Source: a virus. Taken from it: a DNA stretch of 32,304 nt. This document shows positions 1,876 through 27,700 of the stretch, piece by piece. How positions within the stretch are numbered: the first letter of the stretch is position 1; the number at the start of each line of letters is the position of its first letter. The position numbers and the translations under genes were made by a program. The stretch spans positions 1 through 32,304 of the IMG/VR virus record IMGVR_UViG_3300010389_000073, one strand, 5' to 3'. A model generated the notes under the pieces. It had not been told where the DNA came from and searched no databases. It saw only the letters and a program-made list of their open reading frames with translations.

Positions 1876-3317
1876 TAAAATATACCAAATGGATTAGTTT
1901 CTGAAAAATCTACGATATCGTCGGCAAGCCTTTCGAACTCATCATTTTCAGTGTATTTATCATATGTATCATCTTGTACGTGAATTCTGAGAGGATATTC
2001 AGTACCAGAATCTTTTCCAATGATAGTTTCTCCCGGATAGAAACCAAGTTGTGTCGAACCAATACTTACATTTGATACCTTAAGTATCTTAGTATCTTGA
2101 TCCCATTCTTTAACTCTTGCCTCAGTTCTAGATCTAGATCCATAGACAATTTCATTGAAATAATAGGTTCCTAATCCAACAGAAAGTGCTTCTGGATCTG
2201 AAATAGTAACAGCAGGTGCTGAACTATATCCTCTTCCTGGATCAGATATGTATATTGATTTAACAACAATATCATTTCCATCAATACCAATCGAAGCAAT
2301 ACCAACAGCAGTCTTCGCAATTCCACTTGATGGTGGAGCAGCAACTGTAACGATAGGAACGGTACTATATCCAACACCACCATCAGTAACTGAGAATCTA
2401 ATAACACCTTGACCACTAGTTACAATGGAACAAGTTGCTGCTGCACCAGATCCACCGCCACCAGATATTGTTATTGTTGGAGCAACAGTATATCCAGCAC
2501 CAGCATTTGTTAAAAGAATATTTTTGAGAGAAGTTACTCCACCTTTGGTGGTAACAAATCCAACAGCAGTTGCATTATCCCCAACCTGACCTGTTGGTGA
2601 TGATGTAATTGATATTGTTGGTGCTGATGTAAATCCATATCCATCATTATTTAAATATATTCTATCAATATATCCACTAGCAATCGACCCTTGAATAAAA
2701 GCAACCGATGTTGCTGTTCTTCCTACCCCAACAAGTTGAAGAGTAGTGATATAACCCTGGTCTTGAAGTTGAGTATCAATTTCCTCAATAGTGGTATCAA
2801 GAATTTCATCTTCATATTCGAAGAGTTCACATTTCAACTGGTAAACATAGTTTTTACCTAACTGATAAAACGGATCTTCATGCTCTACAAATTTAACTTC
2901 AAATAATCTTTGACCTAATGGAAAATATACTAAATCTCCCTCTCTTGGTCTTGTTGGGGTCGGTAGAATACTAGTATCAGTTCCATCATCTTGACCTGCC
3001 ATAAATGGCGCAATAAAATCTTCGAATCTCTCTTTTGATATTGTAATAATTAACTCATCTCTAACACTAACACCAAACTTAGTTAAAATATCTCCTGCTC
3101 CCCCATATCCATCAAACGTATTAACATACGCTTCGATAGCAAAGTTATCATCAAACTTAGATGATTGAACTTCTTCTATGATCGTTTTGGTGTTTACATA
3201 TTTCCTTGGAATATAAACTACCTCAACACCATGAAATTTTAGGTGCTCATTAACTATATCCTGAACTAGTCTCTGTTCAGAAGCAGTTCCTTGTAAAAAG
3301 AAGGGATTAAGTGCCAT
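1875..3317 (-). CDS. gp14: Neck protein gp14 with a repeat insertion
   Basis: Residues 1-200 match the neck (head completion) protein gp14. They include an N-terminal NPFFLQGTASEQRLVQDIV segment, VEVVYIPRKYVN at about 32-43, and the region around DELIITISKERFEDF. With gp13 it forms the collar that closes the filled head and receives the tail. T4 gp14 has 256 residues but this protein has 480. The extra length is mostly an insertion at about residues 218-377 holding four tandem copies of a GxGY beta unit spaced about 45 residues apart. After it, family-type sequence resumes (YYFNEIVYGSRSRTEARVKEW) to an acidic C-terminus. The start overlaps the gp13 stop by one base, and gp15 starts on its own stop (TAATG in both cases). 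Identification is strong; the role of the insertion is unknown. Confidence 0.93.
   Translation of the reverse strand: MALNPFFLQGTASEQRLVQDIVNEHLKFHGVEVVYIPRKYVNTKTIIEEVQSSKFDDNFAIEAYVNTFDGYGGAGDILTKFGVSVRDELIITISKERFEDFIAPFMAGQDDGTDTSILPTPTRPREGDLVYFPLGQRLFEVKFVEHEDPFYQLGKNYVYQLKCELFEYEDEILDTTIEEIDTQLQDQGYITTLQLVGVGRTATSVAFIQGSIASGYIDRIYLNNDGYGFTSAPTISITSSPTGQVGDNATAVGFVTTKGGVTSLKNILLTNAGAGYTVAPTITISGGGGSGAAATCSIVTSGQGVIRFSVTDGGVGYSTVPIVTVAAPPSSGIAKTAVGIASIGIDGNDIVVKSIYISDPGRGYSSAPAVTISDPEALSVGLGTYYFNEIVYGSRSRTEARVKEWDQDTKILKVSNVSIGSTQLGFYPGETIIGKDSGTEYPLRIHVQDDTYDKYTENDEFERLADDIVDFSETNPFGIF
2185..2667 (-). repeat. Four tandem GxGY units inside gp14
   Basis: The encoded repeats read IYLNNDGYGFTSAPTISI, ILLTNAGAGYTVAPTITI, FSVTDGGVGYSTVPIVTV and IYISDPGRGYSSAPAVTI. 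Their shared pattern is [IF]-x-[LVI]-[TSN]-x-x-G-x-G-[YF]-[ST]-x-x-P-x-[IV]-[ST]-[IV]. Glycine-rich connectors separate them at a period near 45 residues. The copies are diverged at DNA level, so this is a protein repeat rather than a recent DNA duplication. The same unit occurs in the gp7-like, gp8 and DUF4815 proteins of this window. Confidence 0.85.
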
Positions 3318-4156
3318 TATCCAATAAAGTCGAGAGGTGGAAGTTCATATTCCATTGTCATTCGTGATTTGATATCACTCAATTCTTGTTCTGCTGCTTG
3401 ATATATCTCCCCACCATTCAATTCAATTCCACCAGGAAGTTTAACACCTTTAAACTTGCTAAGATTTTGACCCCACTGTCTTTTAATCAGTGCCGTTAAA
3501 TATTTTTTCAAGAAACTATCATTATAAATTTGGGAGAAGGAAGCAGGATCTAATGCTCTATAACATTCCAATACAATAAACTCACCTGCGGTCTGTGAAC
3601 CCCAATCAATGTCAAGATATAATCTATCTTGTCTCTTATTGAATCTTATTTGTTTATCTGTCGTAAGTAAGAAGTCAATATCTTCAAGATATGATTTGAC
3701 CATTGAATATTGTAAAAGTTCAACCGAGTTAAAATAATAAAGATCGTTTAAGAACAATTGGTATTTGATACTAAACATTCCACCAGAGATGGAACTAGTA
3801 TCAAATTTAAATATTCTTTCTATACCAATTACCGATTCTGGTACTTGAATATAATTAGAAGTTTCATAAAAACTGAATGTAGTTGCAGCACCAACAATAT
3901 TTGATGTTCCTGTTGTTGTTACAATCCCAACACCAGAAGTACCAGATGCTCTCCCTCGGTTTAAATCATCCTCTGTTATTTTGTACTTCAAGTACATTTT
4001 TTCAACACCATCATAATGACGTTCATTAAAGTATTGAATGGCATCATCAACTAGATCATCAATCTGATCATCGTCAACATTAATTTCAAGTACAGGAGCA
4101 CCTAACTGGCGAAGACAATAATCAATTAATTGCTGTCTAGTTGCTGGTTTTGCCAT
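3317..4156 (-). CDS. gp13: Neck protein gp13
   Basis: This 279-residue protein is near the length of T4 gp13 (309), the head-completion/connector protein that assembles with gp14 on the portal after packaging. The N-terminal RQQLIDYCLRQLGAPVLEIN and the acidic helix DQIDDLVDDAIQYFNERHYDG (about residues 25-45) are characteristic of the family. So is the central RLYLDIDWG segment, about residues 175-185, followed by ECYRALDP. A short Gly/Thr/Ser-rich stretch at about 70-92 (ASGTSGVGIVTTTGTSNIVG) is less conserved-looking and may be a loop. The gene ends in a TAATG overlap with gp14 and starts four bases after the preceding coiled-coil gene. Gene order and sequence agree, so I am confident. Confidence 0.93.
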   Translation of the reverse strand: MAKPATRQQLIDYCLRQLGAPVLEINVDDDQIDDLVDDAIQYFNERHYDGVEKMYLKYKITEDDLNRGRASGTSGVGIVTTTGTSNIVGAATTFSFYETSNYIQVPESVIGIERIFKFDTSSISGGMFSIKYQLFLNDLYYFNSVELLQYSMVKSYLEDIDFLLTTDKQIRFNKRQDRLYLDIDWGSQTAGEFIVLECYRALDPASFSQIYNDSFLKKYLTALIKRQWGQNLSKFKGVKLPGGIELNGGEIYQAAEQELSDIKSRMTMEYELPPLDFIG

Positions 4157-4160
4157 ATTC

Positions 4161-4355
4161 TTACTTTGTTTTTTCTTCTAATTTTTGTTTCAAGTCAGCA
4201 TTCTCTTGAAGCAAAGATTCTATTTGTTCCTTATAATCTTGATTTAAGGTAGCAAGCTTTGCTTCAAGAAGTACATTTTGATTTGTTATTGATGATAGTT
4301 TTGAATTATAAAGTTTAATTAAAACGTTCACATCCACTTCATTTTGATTTTCCAT
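4161..4355 (-). CDS. Small coiled-coil protein, unknown function
   Basis: This is a 64-residue, almost wholly helical protein. Heptad-like hydrophobics run from residue 10 to the end (VLIKLYNSKLSSITNQ, then LEAKLATLNQ, then IESLLQENADLKQKLEEK), so a continuous parallel coiled coil is likely. It sits between the fibre-like protein and gp13, and starts just after the fibre stop with a GGAGGA motif 16 to 21 bases upstream inside the fibre gene's last codons. T4 has wac, the fibritin coiled-coil whisker, directly ahead of gene 13. This protein is much too short to be fibritin, but position and fold make a small neck or fibre accessory plausible. No family function is known to me. Confidence 0.8.
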   Translation of the reverse strand: MENQNEVDVNVLIKLYNSKLSSITNQNVLLEAKLATLNQDYKEQIESLLQENADLKQKLEEKTK

Positions 4356-4360
4356 TTATT

Positions 4361-6328: not shown

Positions 6329-6358
6329 GTATATTGTAACAGTTCAGGATCTAAGAAG

Positions 6359-6366: not shown

Positions 6367-6369
6367 TTG

Positions 6370-6751: not shown

Positions 6752-6752
6752 T

Positions 6753-9700
6753 TTATGCCAGAGCAATACATCTAAAATCTTTCAGTTTAACTGGTGTTGA
6801 TTCATTTGTAGAAGACATTACTACTTTAATAGCGAAGGAATCAAATTGTTCTAGATTATTTGCAGTGAACTGATATTCCGAATATGAACCAATCTGATTT
6901 GCAGATACAAATGCATCCGCTCTTCCACTATTCTTATCGGGATCAATTACTCTATCACCGTAACCATCACCATCAGTATCTATCAAATTATCATAACCAG
7001 GGAATGGTACATATGCCTGAAGCACTTCGCTAGAATCTGCTTTAAAGAGTCTATAGAATACTCTGAAATCTGCACCTTCTTGTCTACTTGCAGCAATAAT
7101 AACTCTAAGACTTGTCGCTGGTTGTTGCAGTGAAATAGCCTTAGTTACAAATACTGAACCATGAGGGTCACCTTTAACATTATTAGATCTGCTATCTAAT
7201 GTGTAGTCTGTAATAGGACTGTTGGTCTTATTTCTTCCTAAAATGAATGCTGCATTTTGAATATCCATCACTGGCGACAGATCTTCATTTTCAGTTTTAA
7301 AGTCAACTTTCAAAGTTAATGACTTATTCGATGGAAGAGTTGTTAACCTTTCCAATTCGTTTACTCTAGAAGCAACCATTCTTGGAGTACGGAATCTCAT
7401 TACTCTATTAAGAGGAATTGGTTCGTATCCACGATCTAAGAATGAGACCTCATTTCCACCAGCACTGGTTCCTGTGACAGTTCTAATTTGACTTGAAACT
7501 GCTGTTCCTTTTCCTGGTGTGATGACATTAAATGATGCTTCAAGACTGCTAAACTGATGATTCTGAGAAATACCAACAGTATTACCTCCAAACCCTTTTT
7601 GTGAAGCAAAGTTAATCATATTAAATCCAGAAGATCTATCTGATGGTGTAGATCTATCAAATTCTAAGAAGTAAGTATCAAGATTTGAATTCTCGGATCT
7701 GTAGTATGTTGAAGGAATATCATGATCTGTATTAATTCTCATCAGAGAAACGCCATTAACTTCATATGGTTGAATGAAATCATTTGAGGTATGAATGGTT
7801 TTTACTGTTCCATTTAATGCTCTACCATCAATTGTTAAAGTTCCTGCTCCACCAGATCCAGCAGTAATATTGCTATAAGAAACAACTTCATTTTGAATCA
7901 ATGCATATCCACGACTGGTTGTAATTCCTTCAAATTTATTAAAGACACTTGTATTTGCTACTGATATAATAGTATCATTCAATCCAAATTGTCCGGTGAG
8001 AGATACTTTTTCTCTGTCAGGTAATACATCAACAATAGAAATCTTATTATTTCCACCATGATGTGCGTGATTATACTGCTTAATCTGGAACACATTGCCA
8101 GTGTATTTGTCATCAATCAAACTTGATGTTCCATTAACTGATGCAACTGTATTTGTTCTAGATGCCTCACTATCAATATCTGTGTAGTAAACAATAGTAG
8201 ATGAGTTTGTAAAGTTTTCACCCTGAACATTTGTAAGATAGATCGTATCAAATGTTGGATTTCTAGATGTAACTCCAATCTTAGCACCAGTTCCTTTACC
8301 AACACTACTTGTAGTGATTCCAAGGACTTCTCCATCAACATAACCAGAACCATTATTTGTTAAAGTTACACTACTTACCTCATTACTACTAATAACTACT
8401 GTTGCTTCTGCGTTTGTACCATTACCACTAATAGAATAAAGTGGAACTCCTGTAAATGTTCCGTTTGAATATCCAACACCAACAGAGATTATGGATGAAG
8501 AAGAAATTGGACCACCAAGATTTTCAACAGTACCGGTTATACTTGGACTTGATCCTTGACCAATCTTTGTTCCAATAAGAATTTGTGTTTGAACAGTTCC
8601 ATTTACTCCTGATACGGGAAGTTTTAACTTTCTTGGCAAACCTTCGATTGGATTGTCAACCAATGCGGAAGTGTTGTCTCCCTTTGGTGTAATATCAGTA
8701 TTGTAGAAGGTAAGTGTTCCAGAAGGAACAAACTTTGCTTTGTAAAGTTTAAACGTCAAATCTTGATACTGACTTGGAGTCCAAATAGTACCATTTTGGG
8801 ACTTGAATAAAGAACCACCAATGTATTGCTTAGTAACAACAACATTTTGTACATCTGGAAGATTTTGAGTTCGAACTGTCTTCTTACCCATCGTGGCAGT
8901 CCACATTTCATAAGCATCGGATGCTGGTGAAAGAATTACGATTGCATATTCCTTATCTGCTTCTAAGTAAACAGGAGATGGGAATTTAATGTTTGTTGGT
9001 ACTGGTTCAAATGGATTTGTCGTATTGATATTAATATCATTTGGATTTAAAGCAATTTGTGTATAATCTTGTACTAAGAATTGAGTTGGAGTTCCCAATT
9101 CAACAGTTCTAAGTTCAACAAAGACTTTTGCACTAGGATCTTTTGAAGCAAAATACAGATCGAATGATGTTAGGAATGCACCTCTTCCATCAACAGTAAA
9201 TGATTGTGCTAATGGATCTCTATGTGTTGCTTTAACTTTTACATCAATATCAGTTGCTTTTGCTGCTGGTTTGGGTGGATTTCTAACAGAAACTCTTGAT
9301 GTCTCTTGTGTTAGAATAGTTCCAGAACCACTATAACTACCAATAGCTTCACTAGCAAATCTAGTAGAACCTGGAACTGGAGTTACGCCAGGTGGAACTG
9401 CCGTAACTTTGACAGTTTTTGTTCCACTTCTAATCTTCGATGGTGGTGGTGGATTGCTATTTGGATCTCTGAAGAAGAAGTTAGCAACAATATCACCCCA
9501 ATTATCTGAGATTAATTCTGCTCTTGTGATTGTTGCAACAGCACCACTAGTTCTTCCAACAACAGTACATCCAGCAGTTACATATCCATAATATTTTTCA
9601 CTTGTAGAGAGAACTCTAACTCCGAAGTTAATTAATCTTGATGTTGGTGAATAAGTATTACTAGGTGCTGTTCTTGTTCTATCATAAGGATCAGCACTAT

Positions 9701-12700
9701 ACTCCTCAACTAAAACAGCAGGAGATCCCAATCCAGATCCAATATCTGGACGACCTGTGTCGCCAAACTTATGATTTGGTTTTTGAACTCTTATGAATCC
9801 AACTTTTCTACCAGAGTCAAAAATGTCAGCATCTTCAAATACCTGGAATGTTCCAGATTGCATTTGAATTTCGCAGAGTTTTGGAACAATATCGACGGTT
9901 TGACTATCAAGAGACAAATAATGTTTTGTAAATGGTCTTAATCCATTAGCAGCGAAATAAACATTTCTAGAACGCATGAATGGATCAACATCACCAGAAA
10001 TTTTTACATCTTCTACATAATTAAATTCTCTTGATGGACCTGTGAGTTTTGGTGTATATGTTGTAGTAGTTGTAGTTGTAGTTACATCACGTTGTTTCTT
10101 CTCTCCTCTTCCACCACCTTTTTTGTATGTCTCTACTCTGGTATCAACAGCAGTGTTTACATTTGCTTCCTGTACCCAATTAGCACCAGTGGATTCTACT
10201 CTATGATCATCAATATAAATTGTTCTTACCCAGTTATCAGATGCTGGATCTAATTGAACTCCACCAACAAATACAATAACATTGAATGGATTGACATTTT
10301 CAACATCAGTTGCGTGTGGTTGATTAATCCAGTCAACTTCCGTGTAAGCGAGTGTTAAAAGATCACCAGTCTTTTGAATATTTGGATCGAGAAGTTTTAA
10401 GTTCTGACTCAAATCTGCTTTTGTTTTATCAATTCCTGGATTGAGTGCTAATTCAGCATTCATTGACCAGAAATCGACAGGAGAAATTGCAGCACCTTCT
10501 TCTCTACTAATATCAATAGTAGTCTCTGCTGGGTTTGCTAATGATTTGTCTCTAAAATCACTAACAATAAATCCACTCTTAAATCTATTAAGTCCTTGTG
10601 CATCAGTAACTTCAAGAGTCTTTGTACTCAATTCGAGCATTGACAAACTAGTTACTTCTTCAAGTTTCTCAATTCTTTCTTCCAGTTTCGCAATGTCACG
10701 CATTGTGAATCTTCTATTATCACGAAGAAGAACAGAAGATTCTTTAATTGGATTATAGAGATATGCTTTATATCTAATTTGAGCAATCTCCATAGCATCA
10801 TCTGCAAGAACAGGTGCTTCTGGATTATCGCTAGATTCACCTTGAACTACTTCAATCTCACCAAGACGATTCAAAGTTACAAGGTCAATTCTTGGTTGAT
10901 AGTAACTATAAGAAATCAATGAAGACTCATCTGGTGATATGATGAAGTTATAAGTGGATTCATATGATCTGCTGCTAAATGAGAATGGTGAAGAATTTGT
11001 AGTTGAGGGATTAAACTCACTTACTCTTGGTCTAAAATCAAGAGTATCAGATGCTCTTGTACCACCCTCAATTCTTGGAATATCATTTGTAAATCTATCT
11101 TGTGTGTAGGAATTTACAGTGAACAAATCTCCACTGTTACCTTCACCAACCTTATAGTAATCGTAAATTATAAGAAGTTTTTTGGAGGGGACAGCACTTC
11201 CTGCTTTCCTCTTAATTCTAGAGTAGTCGCAATATTGTCTTCTATGACCTTTATCTAGATTATAGTTTGGAGTTCTATCAACATAACTTCCGTTTGTAAC
11301 TAACTGGATAACAGCATTGATTGAAGAATCCTTGAAGGAAACTGTTTCACCAACTTTAAATCTATTCTCATTTCTATAAACAAATTCAATCTCTGTTGCA
11401 GTTTTATTGACTACTTGTGCTACTGCTCTACTATCTCTACCAACAATTTTTTCACCAACTATAGCATTAGTATCTAATGACAGTCCAGTAGCAAATGTCA
11501 ACTTGTCAAGAACAGGAGATGAACTATTAGTTGATTCATATACTGCACGAACACTAACTACATCAGGAACGTTGAGTGAAATTTCATCATCCTCAACTCT
11601 AAGACCATAGTAGCTACTTGTGCTTAAACCTGTGGCAGTAGATACACCACTTGTTCTAGTTACGAGTAATTGATTACTTCTTACAAAATTCTTAGTTTTG
11701 CTAGTAAGACTTCTCTTTCTGAGAGTAGCATTGACTGTTACTCCTGTTTCTCCTGGGAGAAGACCATTGAATGTTACCGATGATCCATTTGCTCCAAGAG
11801 TAAATTGATCGCTAGTTAAATTCTCAACAGTTCCGTTTGAATATGTAATTGTATATCTTTCAGCATCAAATGTTTCGTAGAATACGCTGGTTATACCAGA
11901 CGCTACATCAATAACATCAGACAAGTTTATCGTCAAATTACCAGTTGAGGCATTTGTAGACTGATTGGTAATTTGTTTTGTGATGATTAAATTTGAATCT
12001 GCAAGATCAACAGAAGAGACATTTGATTCTGGAATATCGGAATATAGACCAGAACTTCCCAAATTGATAATTTTGGGACTCATTATAGAAAACACAGACT
12101 CTGTTGAAGATCCTGGTAAAGCACCGGTACAAACACCAACAATTGCTGTTGAAGTATCAAGTGCTGCAAGTGATAAAATGGAACCATCAGCACTAATTGA
12201 TTCAACTCTGTTAAAGGTTGGTAGAGAACCTCCACCAATTTGATATCTGATGATTGAATCTGTTTTAATTCCAGTTACACCAGAGAAAAATCTTCCAGGT
12301 GATGTTGCTTCTCCAGAAGGATTGACGTTTAATTTATCTGTAATTGAGAAATTTGCTAATCTCTTTGGATACAAAATAGCATCTGCGATAAAATCACTAC
12401 CAAGATTTACATTCAGAGAATCTGAATCTTGATATACAGATTTAATATCCTCTACTCCAAATTGTTTTAATGATGTGATAGCAACTTTGAGTTTTGGATT
12501 TTCATTAATTATAACCTGCTCACCAGTAAGGAATGTTCCGGAAGTTTGTGACAAGTTAAAAATACTATTATCACCATTAAATCTTGATTCCAGATATCCC
12601 GTTGCTCCACTAGATAAACCTCTTACAAAAGAAGATGTTGGAGCATCTGCTGTTGTATATGACTTTGCAAGAGAAAGTCTTGTATAGGTTTGAATATCAA

Positions 12701-14108
12701 AAAGATACAAATCCCACTGAGTAGATGCATTTGTATATGGAGCATCAGATACTCCATACCAATAAACTCTTGCATCACCAATTTTTTCACCAGTTCCTGC
12801 ATTTGTGACACTGGTATTTCTTCTTCTATTATAAAGACTTATTGTATTATTATTTCCACCAATACCCAAATATGGAGTTCCATAAACATTATTAACTCTC
12901 AACAAACTTCCCATTGCAAAGGGAATCAATGCTCCATCAACTCTTTTTGTTGTTCTTGGTTTTGGAACATCAACTACGGTAGATCCTACCAAATCAATAT
13001 CAAATCCTTTAACATAAGCAGTTCCTGCCGATACCTTGATCGACATTAAGTCGTCGGTAGGTGTATTACCCTGCTCAGTTTTTTGAGATTCAATATAAAG
13101 ACCACCATTTCCAACTTCATCATTTAAGGAATTGAATACATCTACTGTAAATGAATCAACGGCATAGTTTCCGGACTCTTCAAATGTTCTCTTTGCAAAA
13201 TAATCTTTTATAACACTGTAACTAGACTTATCCTGTAATTTTTTAATCTCACCATTATCAATCTTAACTAACTCAACAAAGTTAGTATCATCATTGTCTG
13301 TAAGTTGTTTTTTGGAAAGTTTTACACTGATCTTTAATCTATCTGCACCTGGTGCAGCATAGTTTGTAAAACCTTTTGCATTATCATTTAATGATTCATC
13401 ATCATCGGAGGTAACAATTTCCTCCAAAATATCAAAACCGACACGATATGATGGATTTGTATCATATGGATCAAGAACTATTCTTGAAGTTGGAACATCA
13501 ACAAATACTCCTCTAATGAAGTATACACCCTGCGCTACACCTACAGCATATCCAGTAGCAGTGGAGTTTGCTGAAAGGAGAGTTAATACAGTATCTCCAC
13601 TATTTAAAGTAGTATTTCCATAAGTTATATTACTTTCTAATGCAAGAATTTCTCCGTCTTCAAATTCTATCGTCTCACCATCAGCAGCACCATCACGATA
13701 TTTGATAAAGATAGTTATCTCCTCCACCCCTTCTGCAGGAGGAAGCAAGTATCCTTTAATAGTGCCAACAACCGATGAGTTTTGACCTACTAACTTTGCA
13801 CCTCTACCACTATTTGCACCAACCAAAGCATCAAGATATACTGTAATATCAATGCCCAAATGATCTGGATTTACCTTAACTGTTGTAAAGGCATTATCAC
13901 AAGTAACTCCACCAGGAATTACCATAGACCCTTCTTTGAAGATATGACTTCCGAAGGATTCTATTTGATTCTGTAATATCGACTGAAGACCTGTTAACTC
14001 CCTTGCCTGAACAGGAAATCCAGGTTTAAAGAGGACTCTGTAAAAATTATCCGCCTTGTCAAAGTCATCATAATAAGGGTTTACGTTAAGGTTAGTCTTT
14101 TGTGGCAT
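6753..14108 (-). CDS. Giant DUF4815-type virion structural protein (gp10/fibre position)
   Basis: This protein has 2451 residues. The N-terminal region (LNVNPYYDDFDKADNFYRVL, then FKPGFPVQARELTGLQSILQ, then FGSHIFKEGSMVIPGG, about residues 5-70) is typical of the DUF4815 family of phage virion proteins. Later parts include a helical coiled coil at about 1122-1156 (MRDIAKLEERIEKLEEV) and an eight-threonine run at 1343-1350. GxGY repeats lie at about 1869-1930, an IDDE-like unit (ALIQNEVVSYS) at about 2049-2106, and a DTDGDGYGD loop at 2377-2385. It lies directly downstream of gp8, where T4 carries genes 9-12. It is therefore probably a peripheral baseplate or fibre-attachment protein; the exact T4 equivalent is uncertain. 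The start sits three bases after the gp8 stop. No enzymatic motif was recognised. Confidence 0.85.
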   Translation of the reverse strand: MPQKTNLNVNPYYDDFDKADNFYRVLFKPGFPVQARELTGLQSILQNQIESFGSHIFKEGSMVIPGGVTCDNAFTTVKVNPDHLGIDITVYLDALVGANSGRGAKLVGQNSSVVGTIKGYLLPPAEGVEEITIFIKYRDGAADGETIEFEDGEILALESNITYGNTTLNSGDTVLTLLSANSTATGYAVGVAQGVYFIRGVFVDVPTSRIVLDPYDTNPSYRVGFDILEEIVTSDDDESLNDNAKGFTNYAAPGADRLKISVKLSKKQLTDNDDTNFVELVKIDNGEIKKLQDKSSYSVIKDYFAKRTFEESGNYAVDSFTVDVFNSLNDEVGNGGLYIESQKTEQGNTPTDDLMSIKVSAGTAYVKGFDIDLVGSTVVDVPKPRTTKRVDGALIPFAMGSLLRVNNVYGTPYLGIGGNNNTISLYNRRRNTSVTNAGTGEKIGDARVYWYGVSDAPYTNASTQWDLYLFDIQTYTRLSLAKSYTTADAPTSSFVRGLSSGATGYLESRFNGDNSIFNLSQTSGTFLTGEQVIINENPKLKVAITSLKQFGVEDIKSVYQDSDSLNVNLGSDFIADAILYPKRLANFSITDKLNVNPSGEATSPGRFFSGVTGIKTDSIIRYQIGGGSLPTFNRVESISADGSILSLAALDTSTAIVGVCTGALPGSSTESVFSIMSPKIINLGSSGLYSDIPESNVSSVDLADSNLIITKQITNQSTNASTGNLTINLSDVIDVASGITSVFYETFDAERYTITYSNGTVENLTSDQFTLGANGSSVTFNGLLPGETGVTVNATLRKRSLTSKTKNFVRSNQLLVTRTSGVSTATGLSTSSYYGLRVEDDEISLNVPDVVSVRAVYESTNSSSPVLDKLTFATGLSLDTNAIVGEKIVGRDSRAVAQVVNKTATEIEFVYRNENRFKVGETVSFKDSSINAVIQLVTNGSYVDRTPNYNLDKGHRRQYCDYSRIKRKAGSAVPSKKLLIIYDYYKVGEGNSGDLFTVNSYTQDRFTNDIPRIEGGTRASDTLDFRPRVSEFNPSTTNSSPFSFSSRSYESTYNFIISPDESSLISYSYYQPRIDLVTLNRLGEIEVVQGESSDNPEAPVLADDAMEIAQIRYKAYLYNPIKESSVLLRDNRRFTMRDIAKLEERIEKLEEVTSLSMLELSTKTLEVTDAQGLNRFKSGFIVSDFRDKSLANPAETTIDISREEGAAISPVDFWSMNAELALNPGIDKTKADLSQNLKLLDPNIQKTGDLLTLAYTEVDWINQPHATDVENVNPFNVIVFVGGVQLDPASDNWVRTIYIDDHRVESTGANWVQEANVNTAVDTRVETYKKGGGRGEKKQRDVTTTTTTTTYTPKLTGPSREFNYVEDVKISGDVDPFMRSRNVYFAANGLRPFTKHYLSLDSQTVDIVPKLCEIQMQSGTFQVFEDADIFDSGRKVGFIRVQKPNHKFGDTGRPDIGSGLGSPAVLVEEYSADPYDRTRTAPSNTYSPTSRLINFGVRVLSTSEKYYGYVTAGCTVVGRTSGAVATITRAELISDNWGDIVANFFFRDPNSNPPPPSKIRSGTKTVKVTAVPPGVTPVPGSTRFASEAIGSYSGSGTILTQETSRVSVRNPPKPAAKATDIDVKVKATHRDPLAQSFTVDGRGAFLTSFDLYFASKDPSAKVFVELRTVELGTPTQFLVQDYTQIALNPNDININTTNPFEPVPTNIKFPSPVYLEADKEYAIVILSPASDAYEMWTATMGKKTVRTQNLPDVQNVVVTKQYIGGSLFKSQNGTIWTPSQYQDLTFKLYKAKFVPSGTLTFYNTDITPKGDNTSALVDNPIEGLPRKLKLPVSGVNGTVQTQILIGTKIGQGSSPSITGTVENLGGPISSSSIISVGVGYSNGTFTGVPLYSISGNGTNAEATVVISSNEVSSVTLTNNGSGYVDGEVLGITTSSVGKGTGAKIGVTSRNPTFDTIYLTNVQGENFTNSSTIVYYTDIDSEASRTNTVASVNGTSSLIDDKYTGNVFQIKQYNHAHHGGNNKISIVDVLPDREKVSLTGQFGLNDTIISVANTSVFNKFEGITTSRGYALIQNEVVSYSNITAGSGGAGTLTIDGRALNGTVKTIHTSNDFIQPYEVNGVSLMRINTDHDIPSTYYRSENSNLDTYFLEFDRSTPSDRSSGFNMINFASQKGFGGNTVGISQNHQFSSLEASFNVITPGKGTAVSSQIRTVTGTSAGGNEVSFLDRGYEPIPLNRVMRFRTPRMVASRVNELERLTTLPSNKSLTLKVDFKTENEDLSPVMDIQNAAFILGRNKTNSPITDYTLDSRSNNVKGDPHGSVFVTKAISLQQPATSLRVIIAASRQEGADFRVFYRLFKADSSEVLQAYVPFPGYDNLIDTDGDGYGDRVIDPDKNSGRADAFVSANQIGSYSEYQFTANNLEQFDSFAIKVVMSSTNESTPVKLKDFRCIALA
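6954..6980 (-). other. Possible calcium loop DTDGDGYGD in DUF4815 protein
   Basis: These codons encode residues 2377-2385, DTDGDGYGD, followed by RVIDPDKNSG. Alternating Asp with Gly at this spacing is the pattern of thrombospondin type-3-like and other D-x-D-G-D-G calcium loops. It lies about 70 residues from the C-terminus. Binding is inferred from pattern alone. Confidence 0.6.
8300..8500 (-). repeat. GxGY units in the DUF4815 protein
   Basis: Two units occur in tandem, IISVGVGYSNGTFTGVPLYSI and VTLTNNGSGYVDGEVLGI (read in part), separated by a GNGTNAEATVVI connector. Pattern and spacing match the four units in gp14 and those in the gp7-like protein. Confidence 0.75.
10059..10082 (-). repeat. 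Eight-threonine run coded by mixed ACT/ACA codons
   Basis: Residues 1343-1350 of the DUF4815 protein are eight consecutive threonines after a basic stretch (GGGRGEKKQRDV). The codons alternate ACT and ACA, giving a near-repetitive GTAGTT-like tract on the plus strand. It probably encodes an extended linker. Confidence 0.8.
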
Positions 14109-15696: not shown

Positions 15697-15701
15697 TGGT
15701 G

Positions 15702-18700
15702 TTATGGTAGGTTAGAGAACTTCCTTATAGCGCCACTCTCTCTAAATCCAAATGTTCTTCTTTGAATCGTTGGGAAAGTAGATAATCCAGAATCAACTGT
15801 CAATCCAGTTACACCAATAGAAATTGGATTTGTTCTGACATCGTAGTTGTAAATTCTACCCCATGATATATTTCCAAGAGGAAGTTCTGTTGAACCAGTC
15901 GTTGATATTCCAGCAATATTACTAGAAGAATCGACATTACAAATCATTTCTCCTCTTGGACCAAAGTTTGTTTTATTTTCTACAATATAGACATTATCTA
16001 AGAAAGTTGTTCCAATACCAACAACAGAAGAGTCTGAACCATTAACTGAGGTTACTCCATCACCAATAGTTGTATTGTAGACGAGTATTGGATAACCATC
16101 TTGGAGGTCATTTGCATCAGAGGAGTTTGAACGGAAGAAGAATTTCAACGCTAATGGGTGACCACCAGTTCCAGCAGAAGTTGTAATTCCAGTAATGATT
16201 CCACTAAATCCTTGGATATTTTGTATACCAGTAATCAATTCTTTTGATGCTTTTGGAGTCTCAATGATTACTTGTGGTGGATTTGTAAACGTATATCCAA
16301 ATCCAGGATTTGTAATTGTTACAGATGAGATGGTTCCACCGCTGATTGTTGCTTCTGCAGTAGCAGTCGTACCAATACCAACTCCAATTCTGGAAGGAGC
16401 AGATATCTTCACAGGCAATGTAGATCCTGTGTAACCAAGACCAACATTACTTATGGTTATTGCAGATATCGTGGATGCTGCTGATACTGTTGCAGTAAAT
16501 GCCGCAGATACTGGTTCATTTCCACCAACTATCAATCCACCAAAAGTATTAATTACAAATCCATAATTATCTTCTTCATAATTGAAGAATTCTGCATCAT
16601 CAACAAAAATATTTGATGTATCTGAGTTAATATCACCAATAATTTTTCCAGTAGGATATACAAAAGGTTCAATGGAGTCTCTAGTCTTATAAACAACATC
16701 TCCTTTAATATATCGATCAATTTTTTGTTTGATCCATTCAATTGGTCTGAAATCTACATCATCAATTCCATTTCCAACATAGATATCCGTCTCAATAGTA
16801 TCTGAACCAAGAATATCTACAATTACTCTGGATCTCTCTTGGTCAGGTGTTAATTTCTTAAATGGATTCTTTCTAACATAAACTTCGTCACCAATCTTAA
16901 TTGTTTCATTAACATCAATTATGGAGACATCAACGCCATCTTGTCCAAGATAGAAGAATATATCAACCTTATCAGAAGTTCTTGGTGCTCTATCAAATAC
17001 AAATGATGTTCCACCTTCAAACGTATATGAATATTTTGGTTGCTGTAATACACCATTAACAAATATGAGTAATAGTGCATCAAGATCGATATTTGCAGAT
17101 AATGGATCATTAGTATCAATTTCAAAACTGAGCAATTCTCCATTGTAATATAATGGGAATCTTCTTCTTGAACCATCTTGCAAGAATCTAATACTATCGA
17201 TATAATCCATTTCACCGAAAGACCATGCTGAGAAGAAATCATTAAATGTTTCTACAACTTCAAGTTTAAATTCTTGAATTGGTTCACTTAATCCAGCAGC
17301 GGTAACCAGTCCAACTGGTTTAAATACATCACCTTTTTGGAATGAATATCCCGATCTAGTTATTTCAAAAGACTCTACCAAGAATAGGGTAGATCCAATT
17401 CCAACATTTGAAGCAGGACCTATCTTTACATTCATGAGAAGATTGCTACCAGTATCAGTTGTAGTACCGACACCTACTCTTGAAATTCCAACAACTTCAA
17501 GATTTTCATAAATTGGTTCGGGTAATTGAATGTATGGTTCAACATATCCAGACCCACCATCATTAACTGTAAATGAGAGTGATCCACCCGCCCCAACAAC
17601 AGCAGAAATACTTGCAGGTGTTCCACTGTGATTTGGATCTGTAACTGCAACAGATACTGGATTTCTGTATCCAGATCCATAATTCAAGTCATACCATGGG
17701 AATACTGTACCAAATCCAACATAAGAGTGTGGTAAAGTACTGGTGCCAACATTTGCAGTGAAAGTTCTTGCAGATACAATTCCTGTAATATCGTAAGAAT
17801 ACTGAAGTTCATCCAGTGGGAAGAAGGATACTATTCCTGCACCTGATGGGCAGGTAAATCCAAGTCCAACAAGTTTAATTCTGTCTCCACCAACAAAATT
17901 ATGATCCGAAGGCGTAGTTATTTCAATCAAACCAGTCTCATTATCGTACAAAGCAGTGCTAATTGACTGTCCAGGACCAGTGTATGATGTTCCAGTGACA
18001 CTGAGAATACTTCCAGACCCATCAAGATTTGCTCTAACCTTTGCGCCAAATAATGGAGCATATCCAAGACCAGGTGTAGAACCAAGAGAAACAATCAGAC
18101 CACCTCTTGGAAGTTGATTTTGATTAATATCAAAATCCGATTTGATATAGGTTCCATCAGTTGATGTGATTCCAGTAAAGACTACACTAGAAATTCCAGC
18201 AACATTATCATTTTCAAATTCATAGTTATTGCCAGCGTTATTATTAGTTGTTGGTGTTTGGAATACGCCATTGATGAATAATATTCCATTTCCAATGTCA
18301 ATACCAGAAGTGTTTATACCCTGAACTGTCATTGTATAAGTTTTTCCAATTCCAGTAAATTGATCTGAAATATCATCAAAAAGAATATTTGTATCATAAT
18401 TTGATCTCAGGAAAGTTCTACCAGAATATTGTGCTCTTACATATGGAAGATTACCTTCGTCTCTTCTTGCTCTTGTATTACCCTTTGGAGGGTCTGCAAA
18501 GAATACTTGATTACCAACAATATTAAATGAACCTCTGTAAACTTGAACATTAGCGCCATCAATGTGGGTTGTTGCAGTGCTTCCAATAGACGCCCTGACA
18601 ACAGAAACAGTTGGGAACGTTGTAATTCCACTACCATTAATAATACCCTGTATATTTCCACCAGTATTTGAACTTAGACCAACATCAACAACTTTCATAA

Positions 18701-21700
18701 ACTCGTCGTCAATCTTCAATAAGTCTCTAAGTTGGATGGAAGAGATTCCACTGAGATTGAATGTCGAAATTCCTGCACTAATCGAACCACCATTGAATTG
18801 CAAGGAATGTGAGGTTGGGGTATATGTTACTGGTTGTTGAACAATACCATCAAGAGAAATGACAGTTTTAGTCAATTTCTTAGTCATTTCCAATTTGTGT
18901 GCATTACCAACACCAACATCAGTAAATGTAACTGCTATTCCAAGATTTGCATACTCTTTCTTTGTAGATAATTTGAAAGTATTTGGCGTAATAGCAATAG
19001 GATACACTCTCTCTGGAAGTCTATCAGTCACTACACCAAGATAGTTTTCGGTAGATCCGATACCCATCGCACTTCTACCAATACCAATAAACGTTGAGTC
19101 TGGTCTATAAATCAGTTCTTCTCCTGTATTGAAGAAGTGTTCGTTAATTGTAAAGACACCAGTCTGCAGATTTACCGTTGTAGAATCTGATGGAGAGAAT
19201 ACTTTCTCATAGATTGGTCTACCTTCATGATTAAGTGTAAAGTTAACTTTATTTGCTCTTGTTCCGTTTATACCATCATAAGCAGACAAGAATAATCTTT
19301 GACTGGAATTGCCATATGTCAGTATACGTGGTTCATTATCAAAATCACTGTAGGTGTATAATACTTCATTTAAAGATTGAACATGAACATTATCAGATGT
19401 TGAATCTGGATAGAAGTTCAAGTAGAAGGTATTTCCATCAACTTCTGTTCCAAATGTACCAAGACCAGATACTGTATTTGCTGGCGCAAAAGGACCAGGT
19501 GTTACAACGAACTGGTCATCACCCTGTACTAGCGAAACCTGATGGATGGCAGAACTACTTCCGCAGGAAGTTCTTACAAGAGATGTTACAGATGTAATTC
19601 TATTAACATCAAATGTACCAACTCTAATTGTGTCGATACCAACTCCAATCGTAGATTCTAGTCTTGCACTTCTTTCTGATCCAGATGGTTGTCCAGATAA
19701 CAAGAATCTATATGTTCCTATTCCAGCAGAAGTGGCTCCAAATCCAACAATGTTCGCTCTAACATCTAATGGAGTGTTTCCATCATTAATAACACTAAAT
19801 GATACTATTCCTGAAACTGAGTTATAGTATGAAGTTAATATACCAACTGATTCGGAACTGTACGATCTGGATTCAGTGTCAAAATAATATTCACTGAGAT
19901 AAGTAGATCCTCCATCAAAAATGAGGGCCGCCTCAACATAATTAACATCTCTTGTAATCTTATCTAAAATCTCAACGTTTGCGAACAATCCATTAAAACT
20001 ACTTGCAGAGAATTCTGCAATAGTAGATGTACTAGTAGAACCTATCCCAATAACATTTGAACCAATAAGATCAATAGAACCAAAAGATTCTGTTCCAAGT
20101 CCGGCAAATGATGAAGAGAATGACTTCTTCAAAATTTTGATGTCATGATCTCTATCGTAAGGATCAGTTGGTGTGAATATTAGAGTCTTTCTTGAATTAT
20201 CATCAACGTTTGCACTAAATTCTCCAAGTTTTACATCAGTAAAGTTGGTATACTTTTCAAATATTACGGAATCCAGTGACGTTGTTTGTAATACAAGTTC
20301 TGATATTTGTGATTGTTGAGTATCTGGATCGACTACTTGAATCAAATATCTTACATGCGTATCGGCAGTGTCAATTTCTTCAATCTCAACAAAAATATCA
20401 GAGAATCCCTTACTTGAGAATCTACCACTAATGTCATCATGAATTAAAACTCTATTAGTTCTACATTCAGTGTAATCTGTAAGACTTCTATTTTGTATTT
20501 GTAAGAACTTAGATTGATCTGGATTGGTTCTTATATTATAATCTACAACATTGTCAAAATTGTTAATAATATCAACTCTTCTTTCATTAACAACATCAAG
20601 AACTACAATACTTTGTGATGTTCCACCAAATCCAATGGATGCATTTGCAGTAGATGTAACTCCAACATCAACAAAGTTTTTTAGTCCAGCTGGATGAATA
20701 ATGCTGTTAACTGGACTTGAAGATTCTTCCCAAGTTATTGGACTCTTAATTGAGTAAGATAAGTTCTGATAATAATCATTATTTGGAGTTACTTGGTAAT
20801 CTTCACTAATCTTACCTATGTCATTTCTCCAACCAATGTTGGACTTGGATGAATAATCAATTTTAAATCTTGCTCTATTTTCAGTGATATCACCTACATC
20901 AGCAACAACACCACTAACCTTTCCTTTGATTTGGTCACCTTTTTTGAGGTTATATCTTCCCTTGATCTTAATGTAATCATCCCTTACTTTTGTTACGATT
21001 ACATCTCTCTCAAAGAACCCAGTTCCAGTATTAACAAATAATTGTTCATTCTCTGAGAAGACACCTCTCTTCTTAATTACATTAAATTCGGGATATTTAT
21101 CTTTTGCAATGATTGTTGCATATCCAGATTGAAATGTTTTTGCTATTCCTGGATTGGTTGAAAGACCGACTCCATTTTCATCAACGATGGAGAACACAAC
21201 TCTTGCTGGATTTGTATTTTGATACGAATCCACAACGAAGAATCTATAATCATAGTTCTCAGAATTATATCCTGTTCCGGAACCTACCAGTTCAATTCCT
21301 TCTACAAAAATTTCATCCCCAACATTGAAAACATTCTCATTAAATCCTAAAATTGGAGTTTTTAATGTGCAAGTTGCAATTCCAGCAGTTGCTAGGATAG
21401 AACTAATACCAACACCATTAGAATTATTGATAGAAATTATTTTATGTGGTTCCGAATCAAGACCAAATATTGGTGCTATTTGTTCAACTTCGGACACTGA
21501 TCCATTCGGAGCACTTGCTATCAAAGTACTACTATCGACGACTGTTTTGCTGGTCTCATTCCATAACAACAAATCAGGTGGATTTAGATATTGAGTTCCA
21601 CCAGAAATAACTTCTATTCGATCGATAACATCCAAGTTATCAACCTCAACAATTGGAGAAACAAATGCTTCTGGTCTTAAAGTTTTATCGGAGGAATAAT

Positions 21701-24700
21701 TATATCCAATATCTTTTATTCTGATATTATTAATATTACCAATAGAAGTTGAGACTGCTACTACATTAGCACCAATACCATCTTGACTGGTTACACTAGA
21801 AAACTTAGGAAGTTTCTTGAAGTTGAATCCTTCGGATATAATCTTTACCTTACCGATAGAACCATTAATTGCAGAAGAAGATTTTGTTGTATATTCAAAA
21901 ACATCAGTATCATCTTTATGATAAGATAATACTGTTGGAACTTTAAATGGTGAGAACTTAAATGAACTTGTTGATATGCCAAATATCTGATAAGTTCCAT
22001 TATACTCACTATCTACAAAATTAATTTGAGAATAATTTGATACATCAGTATCCGATGTGCTAATATATCCAGAACTTTCTAGTGTATAGAAGAGTTTGGA
22101 AGGAACATTATCAGAATAGTTAATTGAAAGAGATGCTCCCGAGTATCCAGCAGTACCTACTCCAATTACATTAAAATCTCTACTATCGGAAGAACTTACA
22201 AAGTTACTCTCAAATTCCTTCTCACGGAATAGTTTGAGGGAATATCCTCTCAATGAAGAGTCTTCTAGATTAAAGGTTAATTTAGAATTTTTAACTACAT
22301 CAATCTTTGGATTAATTAAAGATATAACATGATAAGTTCCACCTATTCCAGTAATATTAACATTATTCTCATGTAAAGAATTTGTTTCGTATTTTGTCTC
22401 TGCTAATCTGAAAGTATTAGTAGTATCTTTAATTACATAATAAGAACCTGTATTTAATCCAGCAGCAATTTCAGAACTTTCATAGTAAACCTTATCTCCG
22501 GTATTATAACCATGACTTGAAATTGTGATTGTGCTGGTAGATGTGTTTATCTTGGAAGAATCAAATCCTACTGGATTTACCAATACTTTATGATTTGTAT
22601 TTTCTAATTTTAAAGATAGTGATCCAGTGGTTCCAAGTCCAACAGATGTATTTGGTTTCATTACGAACCTAATACTATCACCAGTGCTTAATCCATGTGA
22701 TTGACCACAACTTACAGTGGTTACAACCCTATCAATACTACCAGTTACTTGACTGAAGTTTGATGTAAGTAAATATTCTGAGTTATCAGATCCATCACTA
22801 TAGAAGAACAGACCTTCAGTATTTGTTGTAAGACCAACTTGTGTTGTTAATCCAATATAGTCCTTACTCTTGTTGATTACATAAACATCAGAAGAAAGTG
22901 TAAATGTATCTGGAATAAAGAAAGTATTTGAAGAAGTATCGTCAACACCTGCGATTAGAGAATCTACTCCAGCAGTACTAGTTTTTGTAAATGTAAGTCT
23001 TTGACCAGTTTTGAATGGGTGATTTGGCAGATATATGCTTCTGAAAGGTACAGATACTGTCTGACTCACATTACCAACAGTAAATGATTTTAGAATGGCT
23101 CCGCCACCAGTTGTACCAACACCAACAGAGTCTTTGGCATTGAAATAAACTAAATCATCACGCTTTGATTCAAATTCTGGTGTTCTAACAGGAATAGTTA
23201 CTTTATCACCAATTACGGTTAATTGACTTCCAAAGGTATGTGCAACACCACTAGAACCTGCTCTCTTAACTCTCAGTACACCATTTTGATAATCATTGAG
23301 AACAGTTAAAAGTTCTCCGCCGAGAGAAGATTGTACATAAATTTTACCACCGATGGAAACATTTGGTCTAGATGATACAAAGATATCTTCTGAAATTCCC
23401 CCTGTTACTGCAGAATAGGAACTCATTGTTCCAGCAAGACCAACAGTCTCTGATGAGAATCCTATCTTCTTACTTCCAGAGAGATAGAGAATAGAAGTGG
23501 AAAGACCGCTTACCAATACCGTATCATTATTATTAACTTCAAAACCATCTCTGTAATATGCAGAAACCTGTCTATCCGTGTCCCACACAAATACACAAGA
23601 ACTGTAATTATCGAGCGAAGTATCAATTCTATTTACATCTTTTCCTACCAATTCGGATACTTCTGCTCTAAAACCGGTTCCACCTGTTCCTTCCTGGTTA
23701 AAATTGACACTATCTCCAATTCTATATCCAGAACCACCATCAACTACCTCTACATCATCAACATATCCCTTTGTAATGGATTCTACAACAGAAGTTTGCT
23801 CAAATAATTCATAAGATTCTATAATAAAATCATAATCAGCATCTTGGTCATTAACTTTATAAGGATAAGTATTCCTTGTGAGTGTAGAATTGTTAAAGTC
23901 AAACGTTTGATCTAATGTATAATTGTCTTGGATTACATTTGATCTAAAAGTATTTCCAACGAAATATGGATAAAGTGGTTCTAACTCATTTGTTGTTGTA
24001 CTGGTAGTAATACCAGCAAAATAAGCATAGATACCATTTGGAAATTCTGGCGTTTTACAGAATCTTCCATTATGCTTATCCAGATCACCACCTGTGTAAC
24101 TATAATCTTCGATAAAGAATCCTGGTGCAAAAGTTGAAGTTGATGGTCTATCTTCAACGCCACCATGGTTTAAGGAATAACCTGGATTAATTATTTTTAC
24201 ACCAGACTGAATATTATCTGGGTCTGAATAACCATATGGACCATAGATTGGAATTCCATCATATGCCCATCCAATAATTGGAGAGTGTAATGAACCTAAT
24301 GTGTCATCATAACTATCTGCCAAATCTTCAGAGTATCCATAAATTCCATAAACCAATGAGTCATTCTTTTCATTCTTATGAAGATTTGAAAATATTTTAG
24401 AACTTCTATTTCTAGCGTAGTCACCAAACCTCTTAGCATCATTTACTGTAAGATCTCTAACTCTTACTCCAAATATTGCACCACTACCCCTTGCATCTGC
24501 ATATACACTAGTATTACTTGGATCATACCCAATTCCCGAATTGATTACAACAATGTTCGTAATACTTCCATTTTGAATAGATGGTCTTAAAATAGCACCA
24601 GTACCACTTCCAGTAACGACGATTTCTGGAATTGAGTAGTATTCGGATCCTCCATTAAGAACTCTAACATCAACAATTCTTCCATTAGAAATGATTGGTT

Positions 24701-27700
24701 TGAGTTCTGCATTCTTTCCAGTTTTAATGGTTATATTTGGTTTTTTGTGGAGATTTAAAGTAGTTGAACCATACTGTGTTCCTTTTTCATAGAGATAAGA
24801 ACCAATAATTTGACCAGTAACAATTGGAGTAAATACAAACTCTCCACTAAACGTAGAACCATATGATACGTTAGTAACTACTCTAATTGGAGGATACTCA
24901 AATATTTGATAACCACTACCAGTAGATTCGAATTCTACATACTTACCTCTTGTTAAATCATTTGTTAAAGTTGCACCTACACCAACATCAATAAGTCTAA
25001 ATGAATCGGAATTAACTTTAACTACACTATACTGATTACTTGTAGATAATCCGGATATAATAGTTCCAGATGTTGAGTAATTTACAATGTCTCCTGTATT
25101 AAATCCATGATTCTCAAATGTAATCAAGTCGTATTGTGTAGAGACTCCTGATGTACCAACCCTCAATTTCCTATGCTGATAACCAGAACCACCAGTTATA
25201 ACATTAATCTTCTTTAAAGTATTTTGTGAAAGAGTTCTGAACTTATGAATTCCACTAGCAGAAGTTGCTGTTGAGAATCCAACCGTATTAATACCAGCAG
25301 CATGTTCTGCTAATGTATTGTAAAGTTTGATAGTTCTTGTATTAACAAATCCTGCAACATATCTTGAACCATTAATTAGATTTCCAGTAGTTACATTTGT
25401 AGTATCTCCAAAAATTCCAATTGGAAGAGGATCATTTCCATTTGGACTGTAAATTACTTCTTGACCATCATATAGGTTATGATTTGTAAAGAAAGTGATA
25501 GTTTCATCAGTAGTGTCTATTCCACCACCAAGTATTAATGCTCTACTATCAAATTCAACCTCTCTAAATCTTTCTCCAATGATTGGTTCTATAAGACAAC
25601 CACTACCATTACCACCTTCCAGAGAGACTGAAACGACATTATCAATATCAAAATCCTGAGGATCGACAAAAACTTCTTTAACACTACCAGAGATAATTGG
25701 TTCAACCAGAGCAGTTGTTCCAGCACTAGGTGAAATGGAAATTTGTGGAGGATTTACTACATCATACCCATCTCCACTATTCAATACATCAAAACTTTTC
25801 AGTGGACCATAATAAATTTTATCTTTTGATTCTGGACTTGTTATCTCTACACCATCAATCAAAATACCAATATTACCAAAACTTCTGGTCTCATTCTTAG
25901 TTTGTGAAAGAGATTGTTGAAGTGAGAACTTTCTTAAAATAGAATTGGAAGATAAAGTTCTGTTTTCATGACGTTTTAAAGTAAATTTGTGAATTCCTGG
26001 ATTCAAGTTTACACCAAATTTTGAATATTGGGGTTGACTTAAATCTGCTAAAAGTGATTTTGATGCGTAGAGTCTAATTTGATTGGAAGCAACAACATAA
26101 ACATAATAATCTTCACCAGAAGATAATCCAGACAATGGATTTTCCGCAGTATATGTAATTACATCACCAGTAATAAAATTGACTGGTGATGAGAATTTGA
26201 TAGTGGAATATGTTGTACCATCTGGGTCTAAGATAAGATTCGCAGATGTTCCATCGGGAATAGTAAATTCAACAATGTTATCTAAAATATTATATTCTGG
26301 AAGAGAATTGGAAGCTACGTATCCATAATTAAAATCATCTACATAAGTATTCAGAGTATTTGCAATATATTTTCCACTTCCAACGGAAAGATTGACACCA
26401 GAACTCTGTACTTTTTTAATCTTTCTACGAATATCATAATTTACATTTGGATTTGCAGTAAATCCTGACAGGTTACCAAGAATAATCTGATTTAATGAAG
26501 TATTAATACTACTAACAACAGCATCTGCTGCGACAATAGTATTGCTCTCTCTCACAAGAACATCAACATTATCACCCTCTTTTAAACTTGACTTATCAAT
26601 CAGACTCGCAAGAGTAAATGTTGATTGGAAAATGGAACTAACTTTATATCTTGTACTTGTATTATAAATCCAAGAATTTGCAAAAACTTGTTTATATGTC
26701 TTATCTTCGTCTGTCGGATTTTCGATTACTTCTCCAACATTTTTAACAAAGATTTCTTCATCTTCTTCAATCAGTTTAATATTATTAACTTGCTCTAATT
26801 CTGAAAGTACACCCGTAATTCTTAAATCAACTCTCTTAGTTGTATCTCCATTCTCATATCCATAGACAGTTTCATCTAATCTTATATCATCACCAAGATT
26901 AATTTGTGATGTAACACCAGTGCATCCGAAGAATTGATTAATGCTCTTTGATGTATAGTTAATTGTATTATTACCGGAAATTAAAGTTCCAGACTCACTG
27001 AATCCGATTGTCGAATCGACAGAAATAATTGATGAACCTACGGATACAGTTTCAAGTGATTTTGAATTTCCTGGAATTGTAAAAGTTCCTTCGATTAAAT
27101 CTCTATCGTTGTATCCAACAAATAATCCAAGTCTATAGTAAGTTCTATCTAATCTTGTGAATATTTCAACATCAGAAACTGATGCACTAGTTCCCGAATC
27201 ATTAGATTTGGTTATAGTTTGCCCTTCTAATTTAAACGGATCTCCTGAGATTGCCTCTACTACAATAAGTTCTCTTCTGATATAATCAGCAGAAGAGGGT
27301 TTAATCAATCTTCTTTCCAGATCCAATACAATGGCATCTACGCCATACAAAACTTTAAAAAGAATTTTTACCGATTCTTCAATACCTTTTGATTGATAAA
27401 AATTTCTTGCGTGCTTAATGAAGTTGCCAACATTAAGGTCCGATACAAAATCTCTATCCTCAAATCCAGGAGTAAATGTTCTTTTGAGTTTTTTATAAAA
27501 CTCTTGTAAGAAAATTACACTGAGATTCTGTACACTTGTTGTTGCTGTATGTGATACTGCTGAAGAATCTGAGAATACTACATTCTGCCTATTTACGTTT
27601 CCAGTGAAACTGGTAGTTCCGGAATCGTAACCAGTTACTGCACTGAAACCACGAACACAACCAGTAAAAGTATTGCCACTGATTCCCGTGTAAGTAATAA

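Follow-up and report, generated by a model that had tools for sequence, protein, structure and literature searches.

A beta-repeat unit found in four virion proteins of a cyanophage, and its candidate relatives among surface-inserted domains of phage tails

Two structurally described inserts of phage tail proteins are the closest relatives considered here. Domain I of the T4 tail sheath protein gp18 is a six-stranded barrel plus a helix, which is inserted in domain II, points outward and makes no contacts between subunits; its binding partners are the baseplate, in the extended sheath, and the long tail fibres when these are retracted, and its substitutions G106S, S175F and A178V inhibit fibre retraction (PMC3004832). 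The D3* domain of the tail-spike Dpo31 is a protruding insert (residues 434-536) that its authors related to no sequence (PMC13317679). Moreover, the immunoglobulin-like (Ig-like) decoration domains of phages are a known promiscuous class (PMC8718954, PMC9230969). We describe a repeat unit in four virion proteins (the neck protein gp14, the baseplate wedge protein gp8, a DUF4815 protein and a giant gp7-like protein) encoded in the IMG/VR virus record IMGVR_UViG_3300010389_000073, positions 1 to 32,304; this whole stretch of 32,304 nucleotides is referred to as the window. The reading that we favour, with moderate confidence, is that two units form a surface-inserted six-stranded barrel, the same module as gp18 domain I and D3*, with a docking or decoration role.

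The unit has the consensus NGxITSVTVTNGGSGYTxxPTVTISGPxGTGATATAII (about 40 residues), in which a long strand leads through the GxGY turn into a short one at P-x-V-x-I, followed by the GxGAxA turn and a third strand. An earlier sequence-only reading of the window had recognized the GxGY half correctly, while missing the third strand with the GxGAxA motif and hence the full extent; the GxGY turn, part of its approximate pattern, is replaced by GxNY or GxEY in many gp8 and gp7 copies.

Profile searches show that the repeat is real and that one homologous unit is present in all four proteins, as that reading had proposed. Since iteration can be circular, the profiles were rebuilt with each protein left out in turn, the controls being locally shuffled sequences with the composition kept. 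The rebuilt profiles still find the unit in gp14 (40 units of at least 8 bits vs. 0 in shuffled sequences) and, at a threshold of at least 4 bits, in gp8 (17 vs. 0.2), the DUF4815 protein (12 vs. 0) and the gp7-like protein (79 vs. 0.4). The check originally suggested, a profile of the four gp14 units from the window only, yields weak cross-matches (4 at 2 bits or more vs. 0.17 in shuffled sequences), while the profile built from gp14 homologues only is strong, with 53 non-gp14 matches of at least 4 bits vs. 1.6 per shuffled set, and 22 vs. 0 at a threshold of at least 8 bits. The iterated profile identifies 165 sites of at least 8 bits in ten cyanophages, compared to 0.2 in shuffled and 2 in reversed sequences. 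At the DNA level, a pattern for GxGGxY-like turns occurs at 19 sites vs. 3.2 expected, in every case on the coding strand. A tblastn search with an artificial two-unit consensus gave no matches, perhaps due to the low-complexity filter.

The AlphaFold2 (AF2) model of gp14 has three strands per unit and six per pair, with the predicted local distance difference test score (pLDDT) mostly 84-94 in the unit region. The model of gp8 also has six strands for the pair (residues 217-298), at lower confidence; these predicted structures, a check proposed by the sequence-only reading, have the same number of strands per pair. A pair of units most likely folds as one six-stranded barrel, and function probably resides in the pair and not in the single repeat assumed before. 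The segment 222-298 of the gp8 model aligns to residues 99-186 of T4 gp18 (3foa and 3fo8, Z 5.5/5.4, root-mean-square deviation 2.9-3.2, 72-73 residues), and, if the starts 222/99 are extended without gaps, Y233 of gp8 coincides with Y110 of gp18, the Tyr of both GxxY turns. The sequence of T4 gp18 98-188 is IDYTISTPGSNYAVGDKITVKY...DGKIKKINIPTGKNYAKA... and the pair profile scores T4-type domain I above other gp18 segments; its hhalign score with T4-type sheath domain I is 24.5 (E 3.5e-4), while the best of 150 column shuffles gives 15.1 and the reversal 8.5. The gp8 pair and domain I are collinear, with 32% identity over 75 columns, and an Aeromonas phage sheath with the canonical GQGY scores 17.6 bits vs. 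the shuffle maximum of 9.6. The published numbers of the gp18 mutations fit the sequence only with the Met uncounted (a shift of one); in the shifted numbering, G106 is the first Gly of unit 1, 98% conserved, and S175 and A178 lie in the G-x-A segment of unit 2. The structural and profile lines for this kinship are each modest, mutually independent and in the same register.

Against the Protein Data Bank (PDB), the single-unit profile gave nothing better than E 0.2, and because of that the pair profile was used. In an unbiased search it matches Dpo31 at residues 448-513 with E 6.7e-4 and two recognizable units, within the boundaries of D3*. Hence the earlier statement that no function had been described for the unit does not hold in full, as gp18 domain I and D3* are likely relatives and the former docks fibres and the baseplate.

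Several observations weigh against this reading. A structural match can be relied on by itself from Z 8 upward, and the one to gp18 has Z 5.5; it was obtained with a gp8 model of mediocre quality (mean pLDDT 65), and the hhalign probability for the pair profile vs. gp18 domain I is only 37%. Domain I is not among the 50 matches listed for the gp14 model, this list being occupied by neck cores, and a Foldseek search with the gp14 model likewise returns neck cores only. Domain I differs from the module in a degenerate unit 2 and an additional helix. The authors of the Dpo31 structure describe D3* as Ig-like, with a weak DALI similarity to sugar-binding domains, and not as a barrel (PMC13317679). 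No partner of the module is known in any cyanophage. Finally, pairs predominate, but many matches in the gp7-like protein are single units, and pairing is therefore not universal; array lengths are not strictly even, and in bacteria runs of two (32), three (12), four (15), five (3), six (10) and seven (3) units are observed, which makes strict pairing only suggestive. The barrel fold and the kinship with gp18 domain I are supported but not proved.

The pair of units behaves as an insertable module, and in a tail-tube protein the insertion is observed together with the empty site. A two-unit cassette of about 82 residues is present in tail-tube proteins of Pseudomonas (loci L446 and L475) and of the Pseudomonas protegens phage PseuP_224. 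In the proteins of Pseudomonas sp. S31 and PseuP_224 the two units occupy the loop after VGWSDG, while the tail-tube protein of phage D3, 76% identical to that of Pseudomonas sp. S31, has few residues at the insert site and no units. In L446 the entire 154-position Pfam tail-tube profile is matched around the insert, over 241 residues. Similarly, positions 1-297 of the SusD_RagB profile are matched across 334 residues around the pair in SusD-family proteins. In these proteins (L435, L470, L474, L476 and other Bacteroidota) the two-unit insert lies between the VRRRA and ERSLELGFEG segments, an unexpected place of occurrence, as they bind glycans.

The scan of bacterial genomes yields 79 loci with 470 units of at least 8 bits, none being found in the shuffled set, and matches of the pair reach E 1e-25 per genome. 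Long-protein carriers come from Verrucomicrobiota, Planctomycetota, Chloroflexota and Acidobacteriota; carriers of a single pair include SusD-family lipoproteins (Pedobacter, Sphingobacterium), a DUF2589 protein, a tail sheath and lambda-like tail-tube proteins. In phylum samples, each including its seed genome, carriers amount to 20 of 145 genomes for the Opitutaceae locus, 6 of 299 for Pseudomonas and 6 of 198 for Pedobacter, and judging by these matches the bacterial spread of the unit is patchy. Small, secreted-looking Paenibacillus proteins (L464, L473, L495), whose last part is one unit (GSGYTSAPTI), represent a minimal natural carrier. An apparent archaeal carrier (L492, NZRR01000014.1, a metagenome-assembled genome labelled 'Euryarchaeota archaeon') encodes a full cyanophage-type gp14; the contig was set aside, being most likely phage DNA that was mis-binned.

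In nine reference cyanophages the unit is found in the same four proteins, gp14, gp8, the DUF4815 protein and the gp7-like protein, a search of other marine phages having been suggested by the earlier reading (the unit in the DUF4815 protein of S-SM2 scores below 7 bits). Whole-genome scans of the cyanophage relatives add the gp5 hub/lysozyme and tail fibres as carriers in some of them, while no unit was found in the cyanophage sheath proteins examined. Four units are present in 211 of 228 gp14 homologues, and two units in 137 of 158 gp8 homologues; gp14 of S-8S53 (L092, 15127-17061) has eight units instead of four, an expansion. For 32 of 42 gp14 units and 12 of 15 gp8 units the nearest neighbour is the unit in the equivalent position of the corresponding protein from a different genome, and a test for recent swapping of units among the proteins of a genome gave no sign of it (nearest neighbours from the same genome constitute 6.3% vs. 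9.8% expected at random). Since the units are closer to their positional counterparts elsewhere than to other units of their own genome, the arrangement within cyanophages is old and inherited in place. The module, proposed to be mobile, behaves as an insertable one. It is not confined to one virion: apart from gp5 and fibres of the relatives, other phages have it in their tail-tube and sheath proteins, and it also occurs in a podovirus spike and in many bacterial proteins.

The window itself comes from a P-SSM2-like cyanomyovirus, a marine cyanophage. It shares 67% identity in gp14 with Prochlorococcus phage P-SSM2, and the P-SSM2 order of genes is retained (gp25, gp6, giant gp7, gp8, the VrlC/DUF4815 protein, gp13, gp14, gp15). 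All genes and units listed below are on the minus strand. The predicted copy numbers (four in gp14, two weak ones in gp8, two in the DUF4815 protein and about ten in the gp7-like protein) agree with those found: four, two, two (one of them weak) and nine clear plus three weak units, respectively. The proposed location of the units outside the T4-conserved core was also borne out for gp14 and gp8, and scans of T4 gp14, gp8 and gp7 revealed no unit.

The head closure (Hc2) or neck protein gp14 (480 residues, 1875..3317; phrog_460) matches Pfam T4_neck-protein at residues 3-181 with E 5.6e-33, and its four units are C-terminal to the T4-conserved core (residues 3-182). These are unit 1 (residues 213-261, 2535..2681, 30.8 bits; AF2 strands 216-227, 234-237, 250-258, pLDDT about 90), unit 2 (263-302, 2412..2531, 37.9 bits; strands 261-271, 282-285, 290-299), unit 3 (303-347, 2277..2411, 22.4 bits; strands 307-312, 322-325, 338-346) and unit 4 (350-394, 2136..2270, 34.7 bits; strands 349-359, 370-372, 390-393). 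Unit 4 thereby extends to nucleotide 2136, beyond one end of the range 2185-26000 initially assigned to the units. The wedge protein gp8 (519 residues, 14112..15671) matches Pfam Phage-Gp8, and its model aligns to T4 gp8 (1n7z) with Z 14.9. Its two units, residues 217-260 (14892..15023, 17.7 bits, 7.9 with gp8 left out of the profile) and 258-299 (14775..14900, 14.5 bits, 9.0 with gp8 left out), fall between the blocks matching T4 gp8 (164-194 and 485-519). A further small barrel, with the pattern GE-x-I-x-G...W-D-x-x-T-x-x-L, is modelled in both gp14 (residues 188-208 and 380-450, about 1968-2756) and gp8 (361-483, about 14223-14591), and aligns to barrels of the eIF2-gamma/EF-Tu type with Z of about 5.5 for gp14 and 4.6 for gp8. 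Judging by the models, this is possibly a second module common to the two proteins, into which the gp14 units would be inserted.

The DUF4815/VrlC-like virion protein (2451 residues, 6753..14108; Pfam DUF4815 E 3e-55, phrog_358) has a weak unit at residues 1866-1907 (8388..8513, 5.4 bits) adjoining a strong one at 1907-1953 (8250..8390, 23.5 bits, 20.3 with DUF4815 left out of the profile). The gp7-like giant baseplate wedge protein (4103 residues, 15702..28013) is located between gp6 and gp8, like gp7 of P-SSM2. Its units are at residues 735-777 and 775-813 (25575..25811, 32.3 and 6.6 bits, the second being weak), 930-958 (a partial unit, 25140..25226, 11.3 bits), 1067-1112, 1109-1150 and 1148-1191 (24441..24815, 8.6, 34.1 and 17.3 bits), 1415-1456 (a single unit of the GY-x-VGD subtype, 23646..23771, 25.0 bits), 2050-2090 (weak, 21744..21866, 6.3 bits), 3434-3478 and 3480-3509 (17487..17714, 29.1 and 5.3 bits), and 3846-3893 and 3891-3948 (16170..16478, 17.9 and 18.6 bits, 14.9 with the gp14-only profile). 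Directly after the run of three units the protein has a YHYH domain (Pfam PF14240, E 1.4e-26, residues 1159-1339, about 23997-24539).

In the favoured reading, two units (about 80 residues with three strands each) would form one barrel, inserted in a surface loop and leaving the core of the host protein undisturbed, and this module would probably be the one also seen as domain I of T4 gp18 and as D3* in Dpo31. The invariant Gly, Tyr, Pro and Ala would form the barrel and its turns, while the two conserved turns, together with variable loop residues, would contact other parts of the virion (retracted fibres, the baseplate) and possibly the host surface. In this phage the neck (two barrels per gp14), the wedge (the gp7-like protein and gp8) and the VrlC-like protein would be decorated. 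The docking or decoration role is favoured because gp18 domain I binds the baseplate and retracted fibres and its retraction mutants map to the conserved Gly and the GxA segment; for the cyanophage neck and wedge we infer a docking role. A broader proposal, which we regard as tentative and somewhat short of an even chance, is that of an internally duplicated barrel superfamily, similar to Ig-like domains in its promiscuity, inserted repeatedly into virion proteins of all major parts of the tail (neck, sheath, tube, wedge, hub, fibre and spike) as well as bacterial surface proteins, with gp18 domain I as a degenerate member; in marine T4-like phages it would constitute a network of docking sites, distributed over neck, tail and baseplate, that keeps the fibres against these parts.

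Alternatively, the modules could be passive spacers or stabilizers that lack a specific partner and serve only to fill the surface and to thicken or cement long virion proteins. The variable copy number (eight units in gp14 of S-8S53), the long arrays in bacteria, the conservation of structural residues with the remainder variable, and the function of homologues lacking the module (in D3 and T4) are all consistent with this, while the strong conservation of copy number and site in the gp14 and gp8 homologues of cyanophages and the specific phenotype of point mutants in gp18 domain I make it unlikely. Slightly less probable still is a glycan-binding module, pairs of which would weakly bind host or marine polysaccharide and so add places of adsorption over the length of the virion, as has been proposed for phage Ig-like domains. 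The carriers indeed include a polysaccharide-depolymerase spike, tail tubes, fibres and glycan-binding lipoproteins of the SusD family, and the Dpo31 authors report that D3* distantly resembles domains that bind sugars and propose activity close to its interface with D3 (PMC13317679), but this similarity has just Z 2.9. Moreover, the conserved Gly, Tyr, Pro and Ala have the spacing of residues that determine the fold, and apart from one Tyr in each unit there is no conserved aromatic or acidic patch; the neck protein gp14 is distant from the host surface, and fibre docking is the subject of the sole mutational data on the probable relative, gp18 domain I. Independent emergence in each protein of Gly/Thr/Ser-rich beta repeats with a GxGY turn is highly improbable: the motif is short and of biased composition, and tail proteins, as inferred from their sequences, are rich in such stretches, but the matches span the full 40-residue unit in order, survive the leave-one-out procedure and far exceed composition-preserving shuffles, and both the E-values of the bacterial pairs and the tail-tube insertion with its empty site argue against it.

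None of the 46 units is matched by a Pfam model at a meaningful E-value, no Pfam family is assigned to a 763-residue protein carrying nine units, and no NCBIfam family to proteins with six to nine units; the literature searched contains no description of the unit sequence. In PHROGs the unit is matched by 25 differently named families (neck, fibre, wedge, hub), and in phage annotation the matches between neck, fibre and wedge families may come from the module alone. The domain is currently annotated only through its host proteins. If the favoured reading is true, it provides a name, a probable fold and a role open to testing for a domain that occurs in many virion proteins of marine phages and patchily across bacteria, and it links three separate structural results (T4 gp18 domain I, D3* of Dpo31, and the cyanophage neck and wedge).

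The comparison with the described systems is as follows. Domain I of gp18 (PDB 3FO8, 3FOA; residues 98-188) resembles the module in size, in its six strands and in being inserted into a host domain; it sits on the sheath, unlike the cyanophage module, as the sheaths examined there are without the unit. D3* of Dpo31, from the marine podovirus Carin-1 (PDB 28LX, 28MG, 8CK1), is likewise a protruding insert of about 100 residues in a virion protein, Dpo31 differing from the cyanophage carriers in being a trimeric beta-helix spike with depolymerase activity. Ig-like domains (Big_2, I-set, FN3) share with the module the character of a promiscuous, exposed and often dispensable beta domain on tube, sheath, capsid and fibre proteins. 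The module is a separate family, as the Pfam models of these domains match neither the 46 units nor proteins with two to nine units, and it is distinguished by the internal duplication of 2 x 40 residues and by insertion into loops rather than a mostly C-terminal location. It is likely that the module is a second promiscuous decoration module, with likely structural relatives that had not been connected before, and, if so, it would stand as a second large class of virion decoration domains beside the Ig-like ones.

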